A stretch of 64,000 bases of DNA from positions 4,836,001 to 4,900,000 of the forward strand of contig NZ_CP056087.1 in NCBI RefSeq assembly GCF_001839655.2, read 5' to 3'. How positions within the stretch are numbered: the stretch's first letter is position 1; each line of letters starts with the position of its first letter. The notes under the pieces are model-generated. The model was given only the letters and a program-made list of their open reading frames with translations. It had not been told where the DNA came from and did not search any database. Source of the stretch: Pseudomonas argentinensis. GTDB lineage: Bacteria; Pseudomonadota; Gammaproteobacteria; Pseudomonadales; Pseudomonadaceae. Made by a program: the position numbers and the translations under genes. Shown here piece by piece: positions 4,365-59,127 of this stretch.

Positions 4365-4823
4365 TCAGTTGCCCTTCGGCCAGGGCAGGATCGGGATGGC
4401 CGTCACCGCATTCTGCGGGCTACCCTCGATGATGCGATCGCTGTAGACCAGATAAACCAGGGTGTTACGCTTCTGGTCGAAGAAGCGCACGACCTGCATG
4501 GTCTTGAACACCAGCGAGGTACGCTCGCGAAATACCTCCTCGCCATCCTTGAGTTCGCCGGCAAAGCTGATCGGCCCCACCTGACGGCAGGCGATCGAGG
4601 CTTCGGCGCGATCCTCGGCCAGGCCGAGGCCGCCCTTTACACCGCCGGTCTTGGCCCGCGACAGGTAGCAGGTCACGCCCGCCACCTTCGGATCGTCGAA
4701 AGCTTCGACCACGATCTTGTCGTTCGGCCCCAGCCACTTGAATACGGTAGACACCTGCCCGATTTCCTCGGCAGACACCCACAGCGGCAACAGACACAAC
4801 AACCCCAGCCACCCCGCCTTCAT
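4365..4823 (-). CDS. creA: CreA family periplasmic protein
   Basis: This is a 152-residue protein with a cleavable signal peptide ([20 protein letters not shown], cleavage near residue 18). The mature part contains the CreA family core: [21 protein letters not shown], the [19 protein letters not shown] segment with a conserved cysteine, a later [11 protein letters not shown] segment, and the C-terminal [19 protein letters not shown]. The biochemical function of CreA is unknown. In E. coli it sits beside creBCD, but here it stands alone between rpsT and proB, as in other Pseudomonas. Confidence 0.9.
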
Positions 4824-4858
4824 ACGCCCCTCCTTCGATGGATACCAACCGCTCTTCG

Positions 4859-4907
4859 CCTGCAGCCTGCAGCCTGCAGCCTGCAGCCTGCAGCCTGCAG
4901 CCTGCAG
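4859..4907. repeat. Tandem heptamer array, 7 x CCTGCAG
   Basis: Seven uninterrupted copies of CCTGCAG occupy 49 bp in the creA-proB gap, ending seven bases before the proB stop codon (minus strand, 4914-4916). The unit contains the palindrome CTGCAG, so the array could fold in many registers. It is related in unit length and location to the CTTGTAG/CTACAAG arrays at 30481 and 54701. Copy number is likely to vary between strains by slippage. Confidence 0.95.
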
Positions 4908-4913
4908 CAGCCC

Positions 4914-6032
4914 CTAAACCAGAATCAGATTGTCGCGATGCACCAGCTCCGGCTCGTCGACATAACCGAGCAGGCGCTCGATCTCGTCCGACGGGCGACC
5001 GATGATCTTCTGCGCCTCCAGGGCACTGTAGTTGACCAGGCCGCGAGCGATTTCCCGGCCATCCGGCGCCACGCAGATCACCATCTCGCCACGGCGGAAG
5101 CTGCCCTGCACGGCCTTGACGCCGACCGGCAGCAGACTCTTGCGGTCGGAGACCAGCGCCTTGACCGCGCCGTCGTCGAGCACCAGGGTGCCGCGGGTCT
5201 GCAGGTGCCCGGCCAGCCACTGCTTGCGCGCCGCCAGCATGCCGCGCTCGGGCACCAGCAGGGTGCCGAGCAGCTCGCCAGCCTTGAGCCGCGCCAATAC
5301 CTGCTCGATGGCACCGCCGACGATCACCGTGTGCGCCCCGGAACGGGCCGCCAGGCGCGCCGCGCGCAGCTTGGTCTGCATGCCGCCGCGCCCCAGGGCG
5401 CCGCCCACGCCACCGGCCACGGCATCCAGGGCCGGGTCGTCGGCGCGCGCCTCATGGATCAGCTGGGCATCGGGATTGCTGCGCGGATCGGCATCGAACA
5501 TGCCGTCGCGGTCGGTGAGAATCACCAGCAGGTCCGCCTCCACCAGGTTGGCGACCAGCGCGGCCAGGGTGTCGTTGTCGCCGAAACGGATGCCGTCGGT
5601 GACCACGGTGTCGTTCTCGTTGATCACCGGCACCACGTCGAGCTCGACCAGGGTACGCAGGGTGCTGCGCGCGTTGAGGTAGCGCTTGCGGTCGGACAGG
5701 TCGTCATGGGTCAGGAGGATCTGCGCGGTGCGCCGACCATGCTCGCCGAAGCTCGACTCCCAGGCCTGCACCAGGCCCATCTGGCCGATCGCGGCGGCGG
5801 CCTGCAGCTCGTGGATGGCGCTCGGGCGCGCCGTCCAGCCGAGGCGACTCATCCCCGCCGCCACCGCACCGGAGGACACCAGCACCAGCTCGACGCCCTG
5901 CGCCCGCAACGCCACCATCTGCTCGACCCACACCGCCATGGCGCCGCGATCCAGGCCCTTGCCATCGGCCGTCAGCAAGGCACTGCCGATCTTCACCACC
6001 CAGCGCTGCGCACCACTTACCTTGTCACGCAT
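4914..6032 (-). CDS. proB: Glutamate 5-kinase
   Basis: ProB phosphorylates glutamate in the first step of proline synthesis. The 372-residue product has the amino-acid kinase domain (about 1-255), with [11 protein letters not shown], the [11 protein letters not shown] nucleotide loop, VINENDTVV and the LTDRDGMFD segment. A C-terminal PUA domain follows (about 275-355, [13 protein letters not shown] and RGLVNYSA). I start it at ATG 6032 ([11 protein letters not shown]), the usual Pseudomonas start, rather than at 6059. It lies downstream of obgE on the same strand but is separated by an intrinsic terminator. Confidence 0.96.
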
Positions 6033-30260: not shown

Positions 30261-30363
30261 TGCTGGATACCCCGAGTGAAGCCATGAAAAGAGGCCTTAT
30301 CATGGCGACAGTGTTCAGTATTTACAACAGTCCGAACACTCAGGGTCGTATCCCGCTCAGAAC

Positions 30364-30593
30364 CTGTTCATGATCTTTGTGAGCACGCACGGGCGGCTAC
30401 AAGGCAGAAGCGGACATTGAGCTTCAAGCCGCAAGCCTCAAGCTGCAAGAAGAAGCTAGAGCACTGCGGACTGCTTCTAACTTGTAGCTTGTAGCTTGTA
30501 GCTTGTAGCTTGTAGCTTGTAGCTTGCAGCTTGCGGCCGCTTGCGCCACTTAGCTGCCAAACCGACGAAGCTTGGCTGAGCGATCATGAACTG
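30364..30593 (-). repeat. Heptamer-array element copy A (after dadX)
   Basis: This 230-bp element lies between dadX and pauR. The ends are CTGTTCATGATCTTT (30364-30378) and GATCATGAACTG (30582-30593), an inverted pair. Inside are a conserved module containing CTACAAGGCAGAAGCGGACA and CAAGCCGCAAGCCTCAAG, then six perfect CTTGTAG units (30481-30522) degrading to CTTGCAG and CTTGCGG. The dadX-side end is four bases from the dadX stop. The inverted copy at 54623-54868 is almost identical over about 130 bp. Confidence 0.93.
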
Positions 30594-30597
30594 CTTC

Positions 30598-31671
30598 TTA
30601 GGTTTCGCTGTAGATCAGTGGCACCCGCCGCACATTACAGAACAGCTGATAGGGAATGGTGCCGGCGGCCAGGGCGACGTCACTGGCCAGTACGCCGCGG
30701 CCCCAGAGCTCGACGCGGCTGCCCAGACCGGCCCCCGGCAGGTCGCCGAGGTCGACGGTGAGCATGTCCATGGACACCCGGCCGATGATCTGCGACGGCC
30801 GGCCGTCGATCAGCACCGGGGTGCCGGTCGGCGCATGGCGCGGGTAACCGTCGGCATAGCCCATGGCGACCACGCCCACCCGCGTCGCACGTTGGCTGAC
30901 GAAGCGGGCGCCGTAGCCGACCGGCTCGCCGGCCGGCAGGTCACGCACGCTGATCACCCGTGACTCCAGGGTCATGACCGGCTGCAGGCGGGCGGCGACT
31001 TGCTGGGCCTGCTCGAACGGCGTGGCGCCGTAGAGCATGATGCCGGGTCGCGACCAGTCACTGGGGATGCCCGGCCAGCCCAGCAGGGCCGGCGAGTTGC
31101 GCAGGCTGATCTCGGCAGCCAGGCCTTCGCGGGCCTGCTGGAATACCGCCAGTTGTTCGGCACTGCGGCTGCAATCGAGCTCGTCAGCGCGGGAGAAGTG
31201 GCTCATCAGCACGATCTTCGCCACCTTGCCGCTGGCCAGCAGGCGCCGATAGGCCGCCTGGTAATCAGCCGGGTGGAAGCCGACGCGGTGCATGCCGCTG
31301 TCCAGCTTGAGCCAGACATTCAGCGGACGCTGCAGTGCTGCCTGTTCGATAGCTTCGAGCTGCCACTGAGCGTGTACCACTGTCCACAGGTCATGCTGCT
31401 CGATCAGTGCCAGTTCGCTGGCTTCGAAGAATCCTTCGAGCAGCAGGATCGGCCCGGTGATGCCCGCCGCGCGCAGTTGCAGCGCTTCCTCGATACAGGC
31501 CACCGCGAAACCGTCGGCATCAGCCTGCAGCGCCTGGGCGCAACGCACCGCGCCATGCCCATAGGCGTCGGCCTTGACCACCGCCAGCGCGCGGGCGCCA
31601 GCCAGTTCACGGGCCAGTTGGTAGTTGTGACGCAGGGCTTGCAGGTCGATCAGGGCACGGGCGGGACGCAT
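30598..31671 (-). CDS. dadX: Catabolic alanine racemase DadX
   Basis: This PLP enzyme interconverts L- and D-alanine, supplying D-alanine to DadA. The 357-residue product starts at ATG 31671 ([20 protein letters not shown]), with the PLP lysine in [11 protein letters not shown] near residue 33. The catalytic tyrosine is in the GYGARFVS region near 253, and RVSMDML follows near 300. It ends the dadA-ridA-dadX unit, although a REP palindrome separates it from ridA. The longer frame to 31833 crosses that REP and is not the real start. Confidence 0.96.
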
Positions 31672-33594: not shown

Positions 33595-34083
33595 ATGCGT
33601 ACGCAACACCAGAGCCGTCGCGAGCTGGACAAGATCGATCGCAACATCCTGCGCATCCTCCAGGAGGATGGACGCATTTCCTTCACCGAGCTGGGCGAAC
33701 GGGTTGGCCTGTCGACCACGCCCTGCACCGAGCGGGTTCGCCGCCTGGAGCGCGAAGGCATCATCATGGGCTACCACGCCCGCCTCAACCCGCAGAACCT
33801 CAAGGCCAGCCTGCTGGTGTTCGTGGAGATCAGCCTGGACTACAAGTCCGGCGACACCTTCGAGGACTTCCGCCGCGCCGTGCTCAAGCTGCCCCACGTG
33901 CTGGAGTGCCACCTGGTATCCGGCGACTTCGACTACCTGGTGAAGGCGCGCATCAACGAGATGGCCAGCTACCGCAAGCTGCTCGGCGACATCCTGCTCA
34001 AGCTGCCCCATGTGCGTGAGTCGAAGAGCTATATCGTGATGGAAGAGGTGAAGGAGAGCCTGGCGCTGCCGGTGCCGGAGTGA
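33595..34083 (+). CDS. dadR: Lrp-family regulator of D-alanine catabolism
   Basis: The 162-residue Lrp/AsnC regulator has an N-terminal helix-turn-helix (about 10-65, LDKIDRNILRILQEDGRISF, STTPCTERVRRLE). A RAM ligand-binding domain follows (about 75-150, VLECHLVSGDFDYLVKA). In P. aeruginosa, DadR (PA5308) activates dadAX in response to alanine. GGAGGG lies about nine bases before the start. The 154-base intergenic region with dadA is AT-richer than its surroundings (33480-33560, with GTATACAACCGTATA) and is the expected binding region. Confidence 0.92.
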   Translation: MRTQHQSRRELDKIDRNILRILQEDGRISFTELGERVGLSTTPCTERVRRLEREGIIMGYHARLNPQNLKASLLVFVEISLDYKSGDTFEDFRRAVLKLPHVLECHLVSGDFDYLVKARINEMASYRKLLGDILLKLPHVRESKSYIVMEEVKESLALPVPE

Positions 34084-34116
34084 AGCGGCTGCAAGCTGCA
34101 AGCTGATCATGATGAT

Positions 34117-40636: not shown

Positions 40637-40652
40637 CAAGGATCTCGAAAAG

Positions 40653-40758
40653 AGGCTGCAAGCTGCAAGCCTGTATGGTGCTCGCCTCATCGCTGCGGTC
40701 AAGCGTCAGCTCTGGCGCTTTTACTTGAGGCTTACGGCTTGCAGCTTACCGCTGCTGT
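40653..40758. repeat. Diverged heptamer-type element after kauB
   Basis: AGGCTGCAAGCTGCAAGCCT at 40653-40672 and AGGCTTACGGCTTGCAGCTT at 40729-40748 form an imperfect inverted pair. On the minus strand the order CTGCAAGCCGTAAGCCTCAAG resembles the module of copies A and B. The kauB stop overlaps CTGTTCA at 40754-40760, the same end motif that marks those elements. Confidence 0.6.
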
Positions 40759-42252
40759 TCAGAGCTTGATCCAGGTGGCTTTCAGTTCGGTGTACTTGTC
40801 GAAGGCGTGCAGCGACTTGTCACGGCCGTTGCCCGACTGCTTGAAGCCCCCGAACGGCGCGGTCATGTCGCCGCCGTCGTACTGGTTGACCCACACGCTG
40901 CCGGCGCGCAGCGCGCGAGCGGTGAGGTGCGCCTTGGAGATGTCTGCCGTCCACACCGCCGCGGCCAGGCCATATACAGTGTCGTTGGCGATCTGCACGG
41001 CCTGCTCGGCGCTGTCGAAGCCGATTACCGAGAGCACCGGCCCGAAGATTTCCTCGCGGGCGATGGTCATGGCATTGGTCACGCCGTCGAAGATGGTCGG
41101 CTCGACGTAGGTGCCGCCGCTCTCCTCCAGGGTGCGCTTGCCGCCGACCAGCAGCTTGGCGCCGTCCTTGTGGCCGGCCTCGATATAGCGCAGCACGGTG
41201 TCCATCTGCTGGCTGTCGACCAGGGCGCCGACGTTGGTGTTCGGGTCCAGCGGGTTGCCGGCCTTCCAGCCTTTGAGGGCCTCGACCACCATGGGCAGGA
41301 AGCGCTCCTTGATGGAATTTTCCACCAGCAGGCGCGAGCCGGCGGTGCACACTTCGCCCTGGTTGAAGGCGATGGCGCTGGCGGCGGACTCGGCAGCGGC
41401 CTTGAGGTCCGGCGCATCGGCGAAGACGATGTTGGGGCTCTTGCCGCCCGCCTCCAGCCACACGCGCTTCATGTTCGATTCGCCAGCGTAGATCATCAGT
41501 TGCTTGGCGATCCGGGTCGAACCGGTGAACACGATGGTGTCGACATCCATGTGCAGGGCCAGGGCCTTGCCGACGGTGTGGCCGTAACCGGGCAGCACGT
41601 TGAACACGCCAGCCGGAATACCGGCTTCGACGGCCAGGGCGGCCACCCGAATGGCGGTCAGCGGCGATTTCTCGGAGGGTTTGAGGATCACCGAGTTGCC
41701 GGTGGCCAGGGCCGGCCCGAGCTTCCAGCTGGACATCAGCAGCGGGAAGTTCCAGGGCACGATGGCTGCTACCACGCCGACCGGCTCGCGGGTCACCAGG
41801 CCGAGCTGGTCATGGGGCGTCGGGGCGACTTCGTCGTAGACCTTGTCGATGGCCTCGGCGCTCCAGCGAATGGCGTTGGCCGCGGCCGGAATGTCGATGC
41901 CCAGGGAATCGCTGATCGGCTTGCCCATGTCGAGGGTTTCCAGCAGCGCCAGCTCCTCGGCGTTGGCCATCAGCAGCTCGGCGAAGCGGATCATCTTGGC
42001 CTTGCGCTTGGCCGGGGCGATACGCGACCACACCCCGGAATCGAAGGCGGCACGGGCCGACTTCACCGCCAGCTCGGCGTCCGCCAGGTCGCAGCTGGCG
42101 ACCTGGCCGAGTACTCGACCGTCGACCGGGCTGATGCATTCGAAGGTCTCACCGCTCTGGGCAGCCTGGTATTCGCCCTGCACGAAGGCGCGGGTCTCGA
42201 TTTTCAGATCCTTGGCACGCTGCTCCCAATCGGTACGGGTCAAACCGGTCAT
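40759..42252 (-). CDS. kauB: Gamma-guanidino/aminobutyraldehyde dehydrogenase
   Basis: This NAD-dependent aldehyde dehydrogenase has 497 residues (MTGLTRTDWEQRAKDLKIET). It has PWNFPLLMSSWKLGPAL in the cofactor region, the glutamate motif LEAGGKSPNIVF near 268, the catalytic cysteine in GEVCTAGSR near 302, and EEIFGPVLSV. The sequence fits the PuuC/KauB (PauC, PA5312) class that oxidises 4-guanidinobutyraldehyde, 4-aminobutyraldehyde and gamma-glutamyl aldehydes in arginine and polyamine breakdown. PauR encoded nearby is its expected repressor. Confidence 0.92.
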   Translation of the reverse strand: MTGLTRTDWEQRAKDLKIETRAFVQGEYQAAQSGETFECISPVDGRVLGQVASCDLADAELAVKSARAAFDSGVWSRIAPAKRKAKMIRFAELLMANAEELALLETLDMGKPISDSLGIDIPAAANAIRWSAEAIDKVYDEVAPTPHDQLGLVTREPVGVVAAIVPWNFPLLMSSWKLGPALATGNSVILKPSEKSPLTAIRVAALAVEAGIPAGVFNVLPGYGHTVGKALALHMDVDTIVFTGSTRIAKQLMIYAGESNMKRVWLEAGGKSPNIVFADAPDLKAAAESAASAIAFNQGEVCTAGSRLLVENSIKERFLPMVVEALKGWKAGNPLDPNTNVGALVDSQQMDTVLRYIEAGHKDGAKLLVGGKRTLEESGGTYVEPTIFDGVTNAMTIAREEIFGPVLSVIGFDSAEQAVQIANDTVYGLAAAVWTADISKAHLTARALRAGSVWVNQYDGGDMTAPFGGFKQSGNGRDKSLHAFDKYTELKATWIKL

Positions 42253-53840: not shown

Positions 53841-54302
53841 TCAGACCGGCAGCTCGTTGAGCTTGCGCAGCGTGTCGGCACAAGTGCGCGCTGCTTCGGC
53901 GCCCTTGACCAGAAAATGCTCGCGGAAGAACGTCTGGTGCTCTTCGCCGGCATGGAAATGATGGGGCGTAAGCACCGCCGAGAACACCGGCACGTCGGTG
54001 TCCAGCTGCACCTGCATCAGGCCTTCGATCACCGCCTGGGCGACGAACTCGTGGCGGTAGATACCGCCATCGACCACCAGCCCGGCAGCAACGATGCCGG
54101 CGTAGCGGCCACTGTTGGCCAGGCGCTTGGCGTGCAGGGGGATTTCGAAGGCGCCGCCGACTTCGAAGCAATCGATTTCGCTGGCGGCATAACCCTGGCG
54201 CTGCATTTCTTCGATAAAGGCGTGACGCGACTGGTCGACGATTTCGCGGTGCCAGCAGGCCTGCACGAAGGCAACCCGGCGCACGCTGTTTGAGATGGAC
54301 AT
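53841..54302 (-). CDS. ribH2: Type II lumazine synthase (RibH2-like)
   Basis: The 153-residue second lumazine synthase begins MSISNSVRRVAFVQACWHREIV and contains FEVGGAFEIPLHAKRLA, DGGIYRHEFVAQAVIEGLMQVQL, and VLTPHHFHAGEEHQTFF. These features, especially TPHHFH, match the decameric RibH2 of Brucella and rhizobia rather than RibH1. Identity to the RibH at 51485 is low, so it is not a recent duplication. It is the first gene after the FMN riboswitch and is thus directly flavin-controlled. Confidence 0.9.
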   Translation of the reverse strand: MSISNSVRRVAFVQACWHREIVDQSRHAFIEEMQRQGYAASEIDCFEVGGAFEIPLHAKRLANSGRYAGIVAAGLVVDGGIYRHEFVAQAVIEGLMQVQLDTDVPVFSAVLTPHHFHAGEEHQTFFREHFLVKGAEAARTCADTLRKLNELPV

Positions 54303-54403
54303 GTTCGACTCCTGTTTATGGTTAAAACAGGGCAGCTTGGATCGATAGGGATGGTACGGACATGCAGCAGCCGAAGGGCCGCCTTGTCAGGCAATCCCGC
54401 TCT

Positions 54404-54550
54404 CTCTTCATCCGGACTATACCGTCGGCTCCGGAATCACACCGGATCTGCTCGACCCCGGGCGGCTGGTGCCGTACCGGGCGCTCGCGGGCTAGCTGCG
54501 TTGCGCAGTATTACCGCCGGTGGGGAATTACACCCCGCCCTGAGAACGTG
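54404..54550 (-). ncRNA. FMN riboswitch (RFN element)
   Basis: Read on the minus strand from about 54550, conserved RFN segments appear in order: CTCAGGGCGGGGTG, AATTCCCCACCGGCGGTAAT, AGCCCGCGAGCGCC, a GAGCAGATCCGGTG segment, GATTCCGGAGCCGACGGT, and ATAGTCCGGATGAAGAGAG at the 3' end. FMN binding would switch off the ribH2-ribE-ribBA transcript. About 100 bases separate it from the ribH2 start; that space could hold the expression platform (GC dyad near 54371-54390). Confidence 0.93.
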
Positions 54551-54622
54551 TGGCTGCTTGTCGCAGCCGACAGCGTTTTACCACAGTTGCTGCACGGGTG
54601 CACGGCGGCCATGCCTCAGCGG

Positions 54623-54868
54623 CTGTTCACGATCTTCATGCTGGGCTTTATCTAGCTGACTGCAATGTGGCGGGAGCGGCCGCAAGCTGCAAGCCCCAAG
54701 CTACAAGCTACAAGCTACAAGCTACAAGCTACAAGCTACAAGCTACAAGTTAGAAGCAGTCCGCAGTGCTCTAGCTTCTTCTTGCAGCTTGAGGCTTGCG
54801 GCTTGAAGCTCAATGTCCGCTTCTGCCTTGTAGCTGCCCCTACACATGCCCAGAAAGAGCGTGAACAG
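54623..54868 (+). repeat. Heptamer-array element copy B (after ribD)
   Basis: This 246-bp element has ends CTGTTCACGATCTTC (54623-54637) and GAAAGAGCGTGAACAG (54853-54868), an inverted pair. It has the left module GGGCTTTATCTAGCTGACTGCAA and GGAGCGGCCG, seven CTACAAG units (54701-54749), and the shared right module ending TCCGCTTCTGCCTTGTAG. It is the inverse of copy A at 30364. Its right end is two bases from the ribD stop and it separates ribD from the riboswitch operon. Confidence 0.93.
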
Positions 54869-54870
54869 CT

Positions 54871-55989
54871 TCAGCTCGAACGATCAGGCACGGCGATGAT
54901 CCGCCAGTCGTCGCCCACGGCGCGCATGTCGACGATCTTCAGCGCCGGCGCTTCGGCCATCTTCGCCAGGGGCAGATCCAGCAGGGGTCGGGCACTGGAG
55001 CCAAGGAACTTGGGCGCGACGAACAGCTGGTACTCGTCGACCAATCCCAAACGAGCGAAGGCGCCAGCCAACTTCGGCCCCGCTTCGACCAGCACCTCGT
55101 TGGCGCCACGCCCGGCCAGCTCGAGCAGCAGCTTGCGCAGGTCGACATGACCATTGCTGCCAGGCATGGCCAGCAGCTCGTGGCCGTCACCCTGGTAACG
55201 GCAGCGCGAAGTGGCCGCCGCGCAGGTGGCCACCAGCGCCGGGCCGGCCTGGAAGAACGGCGCGCTGAGCGGCACCCGCAGGCGCCCATCGACCAGCACG
55301 CGCAGCGGTGGCCGGGCCTGGGCCAAGGCGGTCAGCTCGGCGCCCAGGCCAAGTTCCTCCGGGCGCACGGTCAGGCGCGCAGCGTCGGCCAGCAGGGTAT
55401 CGGCGCCACTGAGCACCACGCTGGAACGGGCGCGCAGACGCTGCACCGCGGCACGCGCCGCCGGCCCGGTGATCCACTGGCTTTCGCCACTGGCCATGGC
55501 TGTGCGTCCATCCAGGCTCATCGCCAGTTTCACGCGCACCAGTGGCAGACCGCTTTCCATGCGTTTGATAAAGCCGGCGTTGAGCGCCCGCGCCTCGGCC
55601 TCCAGCACACCGCCCTGCACGGCGATGCCGGCATTCATCAAGCGCAGCAGACCGCGGCCCGCCACCTGGGGATTGGGGTCCTGCATGGCCGCCACCACCC
55701 GCGTGACACCAGCGGCCACCAGCGCATCGGCGCACGGCGGTGTACGGCCATGATGGCTGCACGGCTCCAGCGTCACGTAGGCGGTGGCGCCGCGCGCCTT
55801 GTCGCCGGCCTGGCGCAGCGCATGCACCTCGGCATGTGGCTCACCGGCCCTGGCGTGCCAGCCTTCACCGACGATCTTGCCGTCGCCTACGATCACGCAG
55901 CCGACTCGCGGGTTGGGATGGGTGGAATACAGCCCCTTGCGCGCCAGCTCAAGGGCGCGCGCCATGAATGCGTGATCGCTGCTGCTCAT
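54871..55989 (-). CDS. ribD: Bifunctional diaminohydroxyphosphoribosylaminopyrimidine deaminase / reductase
   Basis: RibD performs the second and third steps of riboflavin synthesis. The 372-residue product has a deaminase domain (about 1-145) with zinc motifs HAEVHAL and PCSHHGRTPPC. The reductase domain (about 150-365) has RVKLAMSLDGRTAMASGESQWITG and NEVLVEAGPKLAGAF. It begins one base after the nrdR stop, the common nrdR-ribD pairing. Its 3' end abuts repeat copy B. Confidence 0.95.
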   Translation of the reverse strand: MSSSDHAFMARALELARKGLYSTHPNPRVGCVIVGDGKIVGEGWHARAGEPHAEVHALRQAGDKARGATAYVTLEPCSHHGRTPPCADALVAAGVTRVVAAMQDPNPQVAGRGLLRLMNAGIAVQGGVLEAEARALNAGFIKRMESGLPLVRVKLAMSLDGRTAMASGESQWITGPAARAAVQRLRARSSVVLSGADTLLADAARLTVRPEELGLGAELTALAQARPPLRVLVDGRLRVPLSAPFFQAGPALVATCAAATSRCRYQGDGHELLAMPGSNGHVDLRKLLLELAGRGANEVLVEAGPKLAGAFARLGLVDEYQLFVAPKFLGSSARPLLDLPLAKMAEAPALKIVDMRAVGDDWRIIAVPDRSS

Positions 55990-57762: not shown

Positions 57763-58635
57763 ATGAGCGACACCCCCTACATCTTCGATATCAATGGCGC
57801 CGCCCAGTTTGAGCAACTGGTGATCGAGAACTCGTTCAACAAACCGGTGCTCGTCGACTTCTGGGCCGAGTGGTGCGCGCCCTGCAAGGCGCTGATGCCG
57901 GTGCTGGCGCAGATCACCGAGGGTTACCAGGGCGAGCTGCTGCTGGCCAAGATCAATTGCGACATCGAGCAGGAAATCGTCGCCCGCTTCGGCATTCGCA
58001 GTCTGCCGACCGTGGTGCTGTTCAAGAACGGCCAGCCGGTCGATGGCTTCCAGGGCGCCCAGCCGGAGTCGGCGATCCGTGCCCTGCTGCAACCTCACGT
58101 CGCCGAGCCGCAAGCACCCCAGGCCGACCTGCTGGAAGTCGCCCAGGCGGCATTCGCCGAGGGCCGCATCGGTGAAGCCGAGGCCGCGCTCAAGGAGCTG
58201 CTGACGGAGAACAACGAGAACGCCGCGGCGCTGATTCTCTACGCCCGCTGTGTGGCCGAACGGGGCGAACTGAGCGAAGCCGAGCAGGTGCTCGGCGCGG
58301 TGAAGGGCGATGAACACAAGCAGGCCCTCGCTGGCGCCCGTGCGCAGATCACCTTTCTGCGTCAGGCCGCCGATCTGCCGGACGCCGCCACCCTGAAGAG
58401 CCGCCTGGCCCAGAATGGCGAGGATGACGAAGCCGCCTATCAGCTGGCCATCCAGCAGCTCGCCCGCCAGCAGTACGAGCCGGCCCTGGATGGCTTGCTG
58501 AAGCTGTTCGTGCGCAACCGCAATTACGCCGACGGCCTGCCGCACAAGACCTTGCTGCAGGTATTCGACCTGCTCGGCAACGACAACCCGCTGGTTACTA
58601 CCTACCGCCGCCGGGTGTACCAGGCGCTGTACTAA
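57763..58635 (+). CDS. cnoX: Chaperedoxin CnoX / YbbN (thioredoxin-TPR protein)
   Basis: The 290-residue protein has an N-terminal thioredoxin domain (about 5-112, VDFWAEWCAPCKALMPVL) with the WCAPC active-site dithiol. A C-terminal TPR domain follows (about 120-290). E. coli YbbN/CnoX has SxxC at this site, but Pseudomonas and other homologues have the full CxxC, so a redox activity is possible. It protects proteins from oxidative aggregation with DnaK and GroEL. Repeat copy C starts seven bases after its stop. Confidence 0.92.
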   Translation: MSDTPYIFDINGAAQFEQLVIENSFNKPVLVDFWAEWCAPCKALMPVLAQITEGYQGELLLAKINCDIEQEIVARFGIRSLPTVVLFKNGQPVDGFQGAQPESAIRALLQPHVAEPQAPQADLLEVAQAAFAEGRIGEAEAALKELLTENNENAAALILYARCVAERGELSEAEQVLGAVKGDEHKQALAGARAQITFLRQAADLPDAATLKSRLAQNGEDDEAAYQLAIQQLARQQYEPALDGLLKLFVRNRNYADGLPHKTLLQVFDLLGNDNPLVTTYRRRVYQALY

Positions 58636-58641
58636 GAAAAC

Positions 58642-59127
58642 CTGTTCACGATCTTCAACCGGGCTTTATCTATTTTGACTGCAACACGGCGGTAGCGGCC
58701 GTTCAGCCGCTTTGCCTTTTTGGTGCGCCTCATGCCACAAAATTAGTAGACGACACCAATCGCCCCTTCAGAAGGCCGAGTGGAATCGTTGTGGAGAGGG
58801 TTGAGCGACATGGATGTCGCGAGAGCCGCGATGGGCCAGGGATGGCCCTTCGCGGCGGGCCCTCGGAGCAATGATGGAGCGAGGGGACCCCAGCGAAGCT
58901 GGGGCCGTATGTCGGGGCTAGACCTTTTGGTTTCTTTTGGGGCGATGCCAAAAGAAACCCGCTCGACAGAGCGGAACCGAACGTATGGACAACCCGATAA
59001 CGCTGACAAGCCCAGCTCTCGCAGGGAACGTAAAGAGCTCGCGGCTAAAGCCGCTCCTACGCAATCGCTGAATGTCTGCTTCTGCCTTGTAGTTGCCCAT
59101 AGGCATGCCCAGATCGCCCTGGCAGCC
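58642..59127 (+). repeat. Composite element copy C (after cnoX)
   Basis: This 486-bp region between convergent genes begins with CTGTTCACGATCTTC, GGGCTTTATCTA, TGACTGCAA and TAGCGGCCG, matching copy B's left module. It ends with CTGCTTCTGCCTTGTAG and CATGCCCAGATCG, matching B's right module. In place of heptamers the middle holds other hairpins: CCCCAGCGAAGCTGGGG near 58890, CTTTTGGTTTCTTTTGG / CCAAAAGAAACC near 58922-58960, and GCTCGCGGCTAAAGCCGCTCC near 59038. There is no ORF of note. Confidence 0.85.

Follow-up and report, generated by a model that had tools for sequence, protein, structure and literature searches.

Probable IS1031-type miniature elements on stop codons of Pseudomonas argentinensis and the heptad hairpins found in some of them

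The window, i.e. the whole stretch of 64,000 nucleotides that was analysed, comprises bases 4,836,001–4,900,000 of the single 5,076,637-bp chromosome of P. argentinensis. Genes were called with a purpose-made codon-usage caller; their starts are approximate, and a few calls are plainly wrong (e.g. at chromosome positions 479470 and 4630297). An earlier note on this DNA had described repeat elements within a few bases of six stop codons, those of proB, dadX, dadR, kauB, ribD and cnoX, and all six placements were correct to within one or two bases. The sites are of two kinds: terminal-repeat elements (A, B and the left end of C) and heptad hairpins or arrays without such a frame. The first kind, with its host genes, comprises:

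30357..30359, no strand: left target duplication of element A, TCA, one base different from the right copy
30360..30597, minus strand: element A, probable MITE frame of outer type beta with heptad-hairpin cargo (terminal-repeat pair, 0+2 mismatches)
30473..30533, minus strand: heptad array of A (TRF, period 7, 8.7 copies)
30598..30600, minus strand: right target duplication of A, TTA, which is the dadX stop TAA
30598..31671, minus strand: dadX, catabolic alanine racemase (NCBIfam TIGR00492; start approximate)
54395..54551, minus strand: FMN riboswitch downstream of B (Rfam RF00050)
54616..54618, no strand: left target duplication of element B, TCA (flank sequence)
54619..54870, minus strand: element B, probable MITE frame of outer type gamma with heptad-hairpin cargo (terminal-repeat pair, 2+2 mismatches; missing in relatives)
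54683..54757, plus strand: CAAGCTA heptad array of B (TRF, period 7, 10.7 copies)
54756..54784, plus strand: 29-nt core of the heptad cargo of B, on the hairpin loop side (exact core match)
54871..54873, minus strand: right target duplication of B, TCA, which is the ribD stop TGA (empty ribD ends in four relatives)
54871..55989, minus strand: ribD (NCBIfam TIGR00326)
57763..58635, plus strand: cnoX, a thioredoxin-TPR protein (Pfam thioredoxin and TPR_20; gene name from the earlier note)
58633..58635, plus strand: TNA preceding element C, which is the cnoX stop TAA
58636..59092, plus strand: element C, left terminal repeat (58638–58653) and the body of an approximately 500-bp frame type

The second kind, without terminal repeats, comprises:

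4858..4908, minus strand: CCTGCAG heptad array, 5 nt from the proB stop
34091..34104, plus strand: GCAAGCT doublet, 7 nt past the dadR stop
40652..40757, minus strand: heptad hairpin directly past the kauB stop at 40759–40761 (fold z −3.63)

At ribD, GAACAG of copy B ends at 54868 and the stop occupies 54871–54873. At dadX, GAACTG of copy A ends at 30593, next to the stop at 30598–30600, and at cnoX, CTGTTCA of copy C begins at 58642, after the stop at 58633–58635. The distance of 7 nt previously given was right for the dadR doublet (stop at 34081–34083). The proB array is close to its stop, as had been stated, at 5 nt and not at 7 (array end 4908, stop 4914–4916). At kauB, CTGTTCA (40755–40761) overlaps the stop codon, and the copy there has no terminal repeat; this CTGTTCA was considered as one and rejected as a chance heptamer. 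"Six of six at 3′ ends" is accurate for the placements and has no value as a statistic, the sites being the earlier reader's own selection. A single mechanism for the six sites was unsupported.

Element B is placed between ribD and the FMN riboswitch preceding the 6,7-dimethyl-8-ribityllumazine synthase gene; the pairing script put its right end at 54872, overlapping the ribD stop. No long ORFs were called inside A or B, and at the gathering score no Rfam family matched within either element. Frame A is common to this genome and the relative G001, and the other relatives are without it. For C, no right terminal repeat was found within 4 mismatches; the C-type frame is complete in G001 (500 bp, L169). 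The Rfam family TwoAYGGAY matched inside C (58797–58862 of the window), and the stretch of C that holds the match is repeated many times in related genomes. Some matches of this family may be mobile-repeat cargo. Among the other host genes, proB was identified by NCBIfam, kauB is an aldehyde dehydrogenase by NCBIfam (nearest names PuuC-like) and dadR encodes an Lrp-family regulator. The CCTGCAG array is perfect, has 7.3 copies, lies between creA and proB, and is likely to be length-variable.

Frames were paired in fetched stretches of this genome by a rule that demanded GARCCTGTTCAYGATC ends, at most 6 mismatches in total, a spacing of 90–420 bp and no overlap. It found 49 terminal-repeat pairs, versus 0 in each of five shuffled patterns. 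The 12-mer CTGTTCAYGATC had 41 exact occurrences in the genome and 0 when read backwards. The frames are without transposase and about 130–520 bp long; the paired ones measure 140–281 bp, save for a few longer pairings. Six of the 49 pairs were removed by hand after inspection of the table (411833, 842757, 1148691, 1442966, 4427000 and 4801115). Both ends lay within called genes in 5 of these 6 and one end in the sixth, and TNA on both sides was found in 0 of 6.

Just outside the repeats of the 43 kept frames, TNA stood on the left in 28, on the right in 26, on both sides in 17 and as identical copies in 11, against a background of 4.8% of intergenic trinucleotides. The flank copies are direct (TAA...TAA, TTA...TTA, TCA...TCA, TGA...TGA), which marks TNA as a target duplication that lies outside the inverted repeat. 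Terminal repeats lengthened to take in CTNAG were rejected on the same grounds. The target reads CTNAG, with C before the left TNA in 35 of 48 cases and G after the right TNA in 32 of 48. Whatever its middle base, TNA spells a stop codon on one strand or the other: TAA and TGA as written, TTA and TCA on the other strand. attC-like integron sites were rejected by eye, as the ends did not read as the GTTRRRY core of such sites. Three frames (chromosome positions 2118699, 4133508 and 4271430) carry a sister terminal repeat, ...TTCAAAGTC, which is also that of an IS5-family copy from a plasmid of Aromatoleum. The genome may have drawn on two related transposases.

Stop codons were counted against a background of 464 kb of the same genome, with 774 CTNAG sites and 383 stops. 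A stop lay exactly at the frame end in 22 of the 43 kept frames, and 8 more overlapped one by one or two bases. This amounts to 30/43, or 30/49 with the removed pairs taken as misses. CTNAG sites outside coding interiors are stops in 66 of 235 cases (28%); compared with this, 30/49 gave p = 1.3e-6 and 22/49 gave p = 0.009. The other kept frames were 1–60 nt from a stop (nine), more than 100 nt away (one) or without a called stop neighbour (three). TAA was the stop at 15 frame ends, TGA at 9 and TAG at 6, while the background stops were 68, 264 and 51, respectively. The TAA excess (p = 1.3e-4) is as expected if the transposase prefers TAA/TTA. In five frames that end in TAG, the last base of the stop doubles as the first base of the element; CTNAG sites giving such TAG stops numbered 0 of 774 in the background. 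In G001, where pairs within called genes were skipped, the 23 pairs outside called genes had 12 exact stops, 2 overlapping ones and 10 identical flanking trinucleotides.

Relatives with empty sites were available for all three genes. At ribD, four genomes (G027, G060, G012 and G064) run from the stop directly into the sequence beyond the right duplication of B. Two have other sequence there (G063 and G008), and G054 was unusable for the comparison, its reading frame ending elsewhere. At dadX the frame is missing from G027, G060, G064 and G008, and G012 carries another palindrome; at cnoX no frame occurs in G027, G054, G063, G060 and G064, and G008 has a short heptad-like stretch at the start. 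In G012 (L157), the gap from the cnoX stop to the convergent stop is filled by a frame-less heptad hairpin; our genome has element C at that place. The ribD frame of G001 is 12 nt away from the stop and not on it, which implies either a change at one of these sites or two insertions that were not identical.

With or without an element, the ribD, dadX and cnoX proteins end at the same point or within a few residues of it; cnoX reads YQALY* in this genome, and likewise in G001, which has the frame, and in G027, which lacks it. This bears on the idea that the elements inserted into coding sequence and supplied the stop themselves, leaving host genes slightly truncated or extended. The five TAG frames and the TNAG carried by the ends, which is able to yield a stop, would suit such an origin. 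However, it hardly agrees with C-termini that match those of element-free relatives, including a cnoX terminus that is the same either way, and we regard it as extremely improbable.

The distribution among intergenic regions was uneven. Tandem, convergent and divergent regions held 20, 20 and 3 of the 43 frames and 168, 29 and 23 of the background CTNAG sites, respectively. Convergent regions were strongly favoured (20/43 frames versus 29/220 CTNAG sites, p = 3e-6), and the shortage of frames in divergent regions was, taken alone, not significant (p = 0.59). Divergent regions also held 0 of 21 frame-less core copies and 0 of 20 heptad hairpins. An even intergenic spread that takes in sequence upstream of starts, which the earlier note had named as the contrary outcome, was not seen. 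Some convergent pairs, including those at 479470 and 1498814, have one stop at the frame end and the other a few bases beyond (1498814: −1 and 5 nt).

Such a pattern could arise if the transposition machinery actively recognised gene ends (terminators, transcript 3′ ends or translation stop complexes) and delivered elements to stops, a reading that fits both the 30 of 49 pairs at stops, against 28% of CTNAG sites outside coding interiors, and the convergent excess. However, within 60 nt of stops exact hits were not in excess over CTNAG (22:9 versus 65:33, p = 0.67), also when overlapping stops were counted (30:9, p = 0.30). Motif plus selection thus suffices, and a stop-codon sensor is unneeded. 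In other bacteria, among the matches listed, the end faced the stop of an ORF 300 nt or longer in 4 of 20 copies with transposase ORFs, 13 of 22 short paired copies and 12 of 31 unclassified ones. The difference between short and transposase-bearing copies (p = 0.0135, small numbers) points to retention and fits a purging of other insertions over time. We consider active delivery very unlikely. The targeted insertion at gene ends or terminators that was suggested earlier holds in so far as gene-end insertion is real and recurrent; active targeting is not needed, given the lack of excess over CTNAG.

Exact matches to the 16-nt repeat were found in 9 of 115 genomes; this genome is among the nine, which all belong to one genus. 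When TNA and three more bases were added to the repeat, at least 119 stretches in the genome collection matched. They came mainly from Beta- and Gammaproteobacteria, along with some metagenome bins under other labels. Among the matches listed, 57 paired elements came from other bacteria, and 47 of them had perfect TNA duplications; the search pattern had demanded TNA at one end only. Thirty of these 57, again among the matches listed, coincided exactly with the stop codon of an ORF 300 nt or longer, and 5 more were TAG-shifted. As a control, 103 of 842 CTNAG sites in the same loci were stops of such ORFs, a control more lenient than the null from our own genome because coding CTNAG sites are included.

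Four longer copies among the matches listed had these same ends and two ORFs (L309, L225, L265 and L278; 837, 845, 849 and 892 bp). The ORFs of L265 and L309 matched DUF4096 and DDE_Tnp_1, the second ORF of L278 matched DDE_Tnp_1, and NCBIfam placed them in the IS5 family. Insertion sequence copies on plasmids of Nitrosomonas stercoris (annotated as ISStma16) and Aromatoleum aromaticum have such ends with TTA on both sides, and the Aromatoleum variant, GAACCTGTTCAAAGTC, also terminates some frames of this genome. For ISAba37 on an Acinetobacter plasmid, the script gave no clear terminal repeat. A PF01609 search of this genome found no autonomous partner. Its sole match lacked good terminal repeats in its surroundings, so the partner has been lost or was missed. 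A partner in the same genome is not a strict requirement for MITEs, and it may have been lost.

A, B and C are very probably non-autonomous IS5-family (IS1031-type) MITEs that have a stop codon as their TNA target and carry exchangeable hairpin cargo. An IS1031-type transposase, supplied in trans, would cut CTNAG and duplicate TNA. Since TAA and TGA, like TTA and TCA read on the other strand, are stop codons and are duplicated, an element entering a stop would restore it on the gene side without altering the protein. Insertions elsewhere in genes or in promoters would be purged, with the result that survivors would accumulate at stops and between convergent genes. Modules would be swapped by recombination or gene conversion between the frame arms, or by nested insertion.

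ISLrh, of the IS1031 subgroup of the IS5 family, has the inverted repeat GAACCTGTCTAGTATCT and two ORFs, and in the part of the source consulted the IS1031 group is described with a preference for TNA and a 3-bp repeat (PMC12016507). The elements described here resemble this subgroup in the repeat start GARCC(T/C)GT, the TNA target and the 3-bp duplication, and the full-length copies do so in their length of about 840–890 bp and their two ORFs (PMC12016507). Unlike members of the subgroup as covered there, the elements here are without transposase, about 130–520 bp long, about half of them on stops, and have exchangeable palindromes. The earlier statement that no named family fits is accordingly superseded for A, B and C, which belong with the IS1031-type MITEs; it stands for the heptad hairpins, as far as searched.

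Other miniature elements share parts of this architecture, as far as the portions of the sources consulted tell. MITEPsy1 of Pseudomonas syringae, which was shown to move, is also an IS5-type MITE with a short duplicated target that holds TAG or TAA (CTAG or YTAA), but it has other terminal repeats, a 4-nt duplication and a length of 100 bp (PMC3189936). Its six copies are divided equally among genes, other transposons and intergenic positions (PMC3189936). BrickBuilt of Porphyromonas gingivalis is likewise a MITE with IS5-like ends and an internal tandem-repeat array, and is always intergenic; in contrast, its repeats are of 23 nt, it has no consistent duplication, and it lies 49–591 nt from coding sequences and hence off stops (PMC4596501). 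The intergenic repeats of P. fluorescens are MITE-like inverted-repeat elements with a bias for tail-to-tail gene pairs, but they are of other families, and the portion of text compared makes no mention of stop-codon duplication (PMC2718517). In the open-licence literature searched, no description of MITEs that duplicate stop codons was found, and "stop codon" is absent from the main text of a 2024 review of prokaryotic MITEs.

The proposed model offers a simple reason for the crowding of palindromic repeats at bacterial gene ends: the stop would be a preferred TNA target and at the same time the sole place in a gene where an insertion changes nothing. It predicts the TAA bias, the CTNAG context, unchanged C-termini and a preference for convergent pairs, and it allows exact annotation of such elements.

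The cargo was studied separately from the frames. Core copies and heptad hairpins were collected by profile search, then extracted and aligned. The core of about 105 nt was present in 43 copies, separate from about 20 heptad hairpins without it, and many core copies are enclosed by a second, outer inverted-repeat pair. Of the 43, 22 lay inside a recognised pair and 21 outside; the latter were in convergent (14), tandem (7) and divergent (0) regions, several with ends that looked decayed by eye. Among 115 genomes, the heptad core was found in one, namely this one. At ribD and dadX, G001 has the same frames, with alignable arms, but another palindrome stands where this genome has the heptad hairpin.

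Cargo and outer type were classified for 40 of the 49 pairs (three further ones being removed), with loose labels and thresholds set in this analysis. Heptad cargo was found in 10 alpha, 9 beta and 2 gamma frames and in one poorly matched frame. The beta frames also hold a GTAGGGTGGAC palindrome (2) or REP-like palindromes (3), the labels again being those of this analysis. REP/BIME palindromes are short palindromes after genes in Pseudomonas. The REP-like cargo of some frames is a likeness to them, and the heptad architecture of the elements here is a difference.

When A and B were aligned, the inner columns were identical in 144 of 144 positions, a two-heptad gap aside, while the outer arms agreed in 27 of 37 and 33 of 57 positions (58–73%). 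Centre and frame thus have different histories. The inner identity appears to reflect a recent exchange of the centre, and judging from its presence in one genome and in several frame types, and from the other palindrome in the frames of G001, the heptad hairpin is an exchangeable cargo module, young and lineage-specific. Gene conversion through the shared arms is our preferred reading over nested insertion.

The host might also retain the elements at stops as 3′-end RNA structures, for mRNA stabilisation, termination or insulation between genes. End-to-end folding of B gave −121.6 kcal/mol (z −5.45), and five of six shorter hairpins had z ≤ −3.3 (range −1.73 to −5.86). Both frames and frame-less hairpins adjoin stops and avoid divergent regions, and the ends of ribD, dadX and cnoX hold different palindromes in different species. 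Nevertheless, folding is expected of any element with terminal inverted repeats, one of the six hairpins reached a z of only −1.73, and relatives do without elements at the same gene ends. Terminator-like sites numbered 0 at B (54300–54950; 0.5 in shuffles). A Rho-independent terminator was rejected there, since no GC hairpin with a T run was found in 54300–54950. No promoter-like site was found at B either. We think retention for an RNA role unlikely, and the preferred reading remains that of MITEs which survive on stops where they do no harm to the protein.

The frame-less hairpins were counted at 20 places (20 of 22 rows; one core copy in a frame and one duplicate of the same intergenic region were left out). 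There, 20 of 24 neighbouring stops were 3–22 nt from the first heptad word, and 0 places were divergent. Some hairpins span nearly the whole intergenic gap, e.g. between convergent genes at chromosome positions 664777–664893 (L048). These positions, together with the absence of the hairpin after kauB in G001 and the presence of one after the cnoX stop in G012, would be compatible with one mechanism for all six sites, in which the heptad hairpin is the mobile unit and stop codons are its target. That is quite unlikely in our view: in A and B the hairpin occupies the centre of a frame, and it is the frame that carries the ends and the duplication; no terminal repeats or target duplication were recognised in the frame-less hairpins. 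These form a class of their own and a possible source of the heptad module.

More broadly, stop codons could serve IS1031-type MITEs throughout the Beta- and Gammaproteobacteria as a permanent refuge, with the frames as long-lived docking cassettes that keep their arms and swap palindromic cargo from one locus to another. We put this forward tentatively, as possible rather than probable. Hairpin-module exchange in fixed frames would carry one RNA structure to many 3′ ends quickly; if the frames do act as docking cassettes, a lineage could refit dozens of gene 3′ ends at once with a new RNA hairpin.

A second family was seen at a gene end in G001 (L172, about 4378–4690), where an inverted-repeat element with the ends CTAGGGTCTGTTGCCGTTTC lies 5 nt past the dadR stop.
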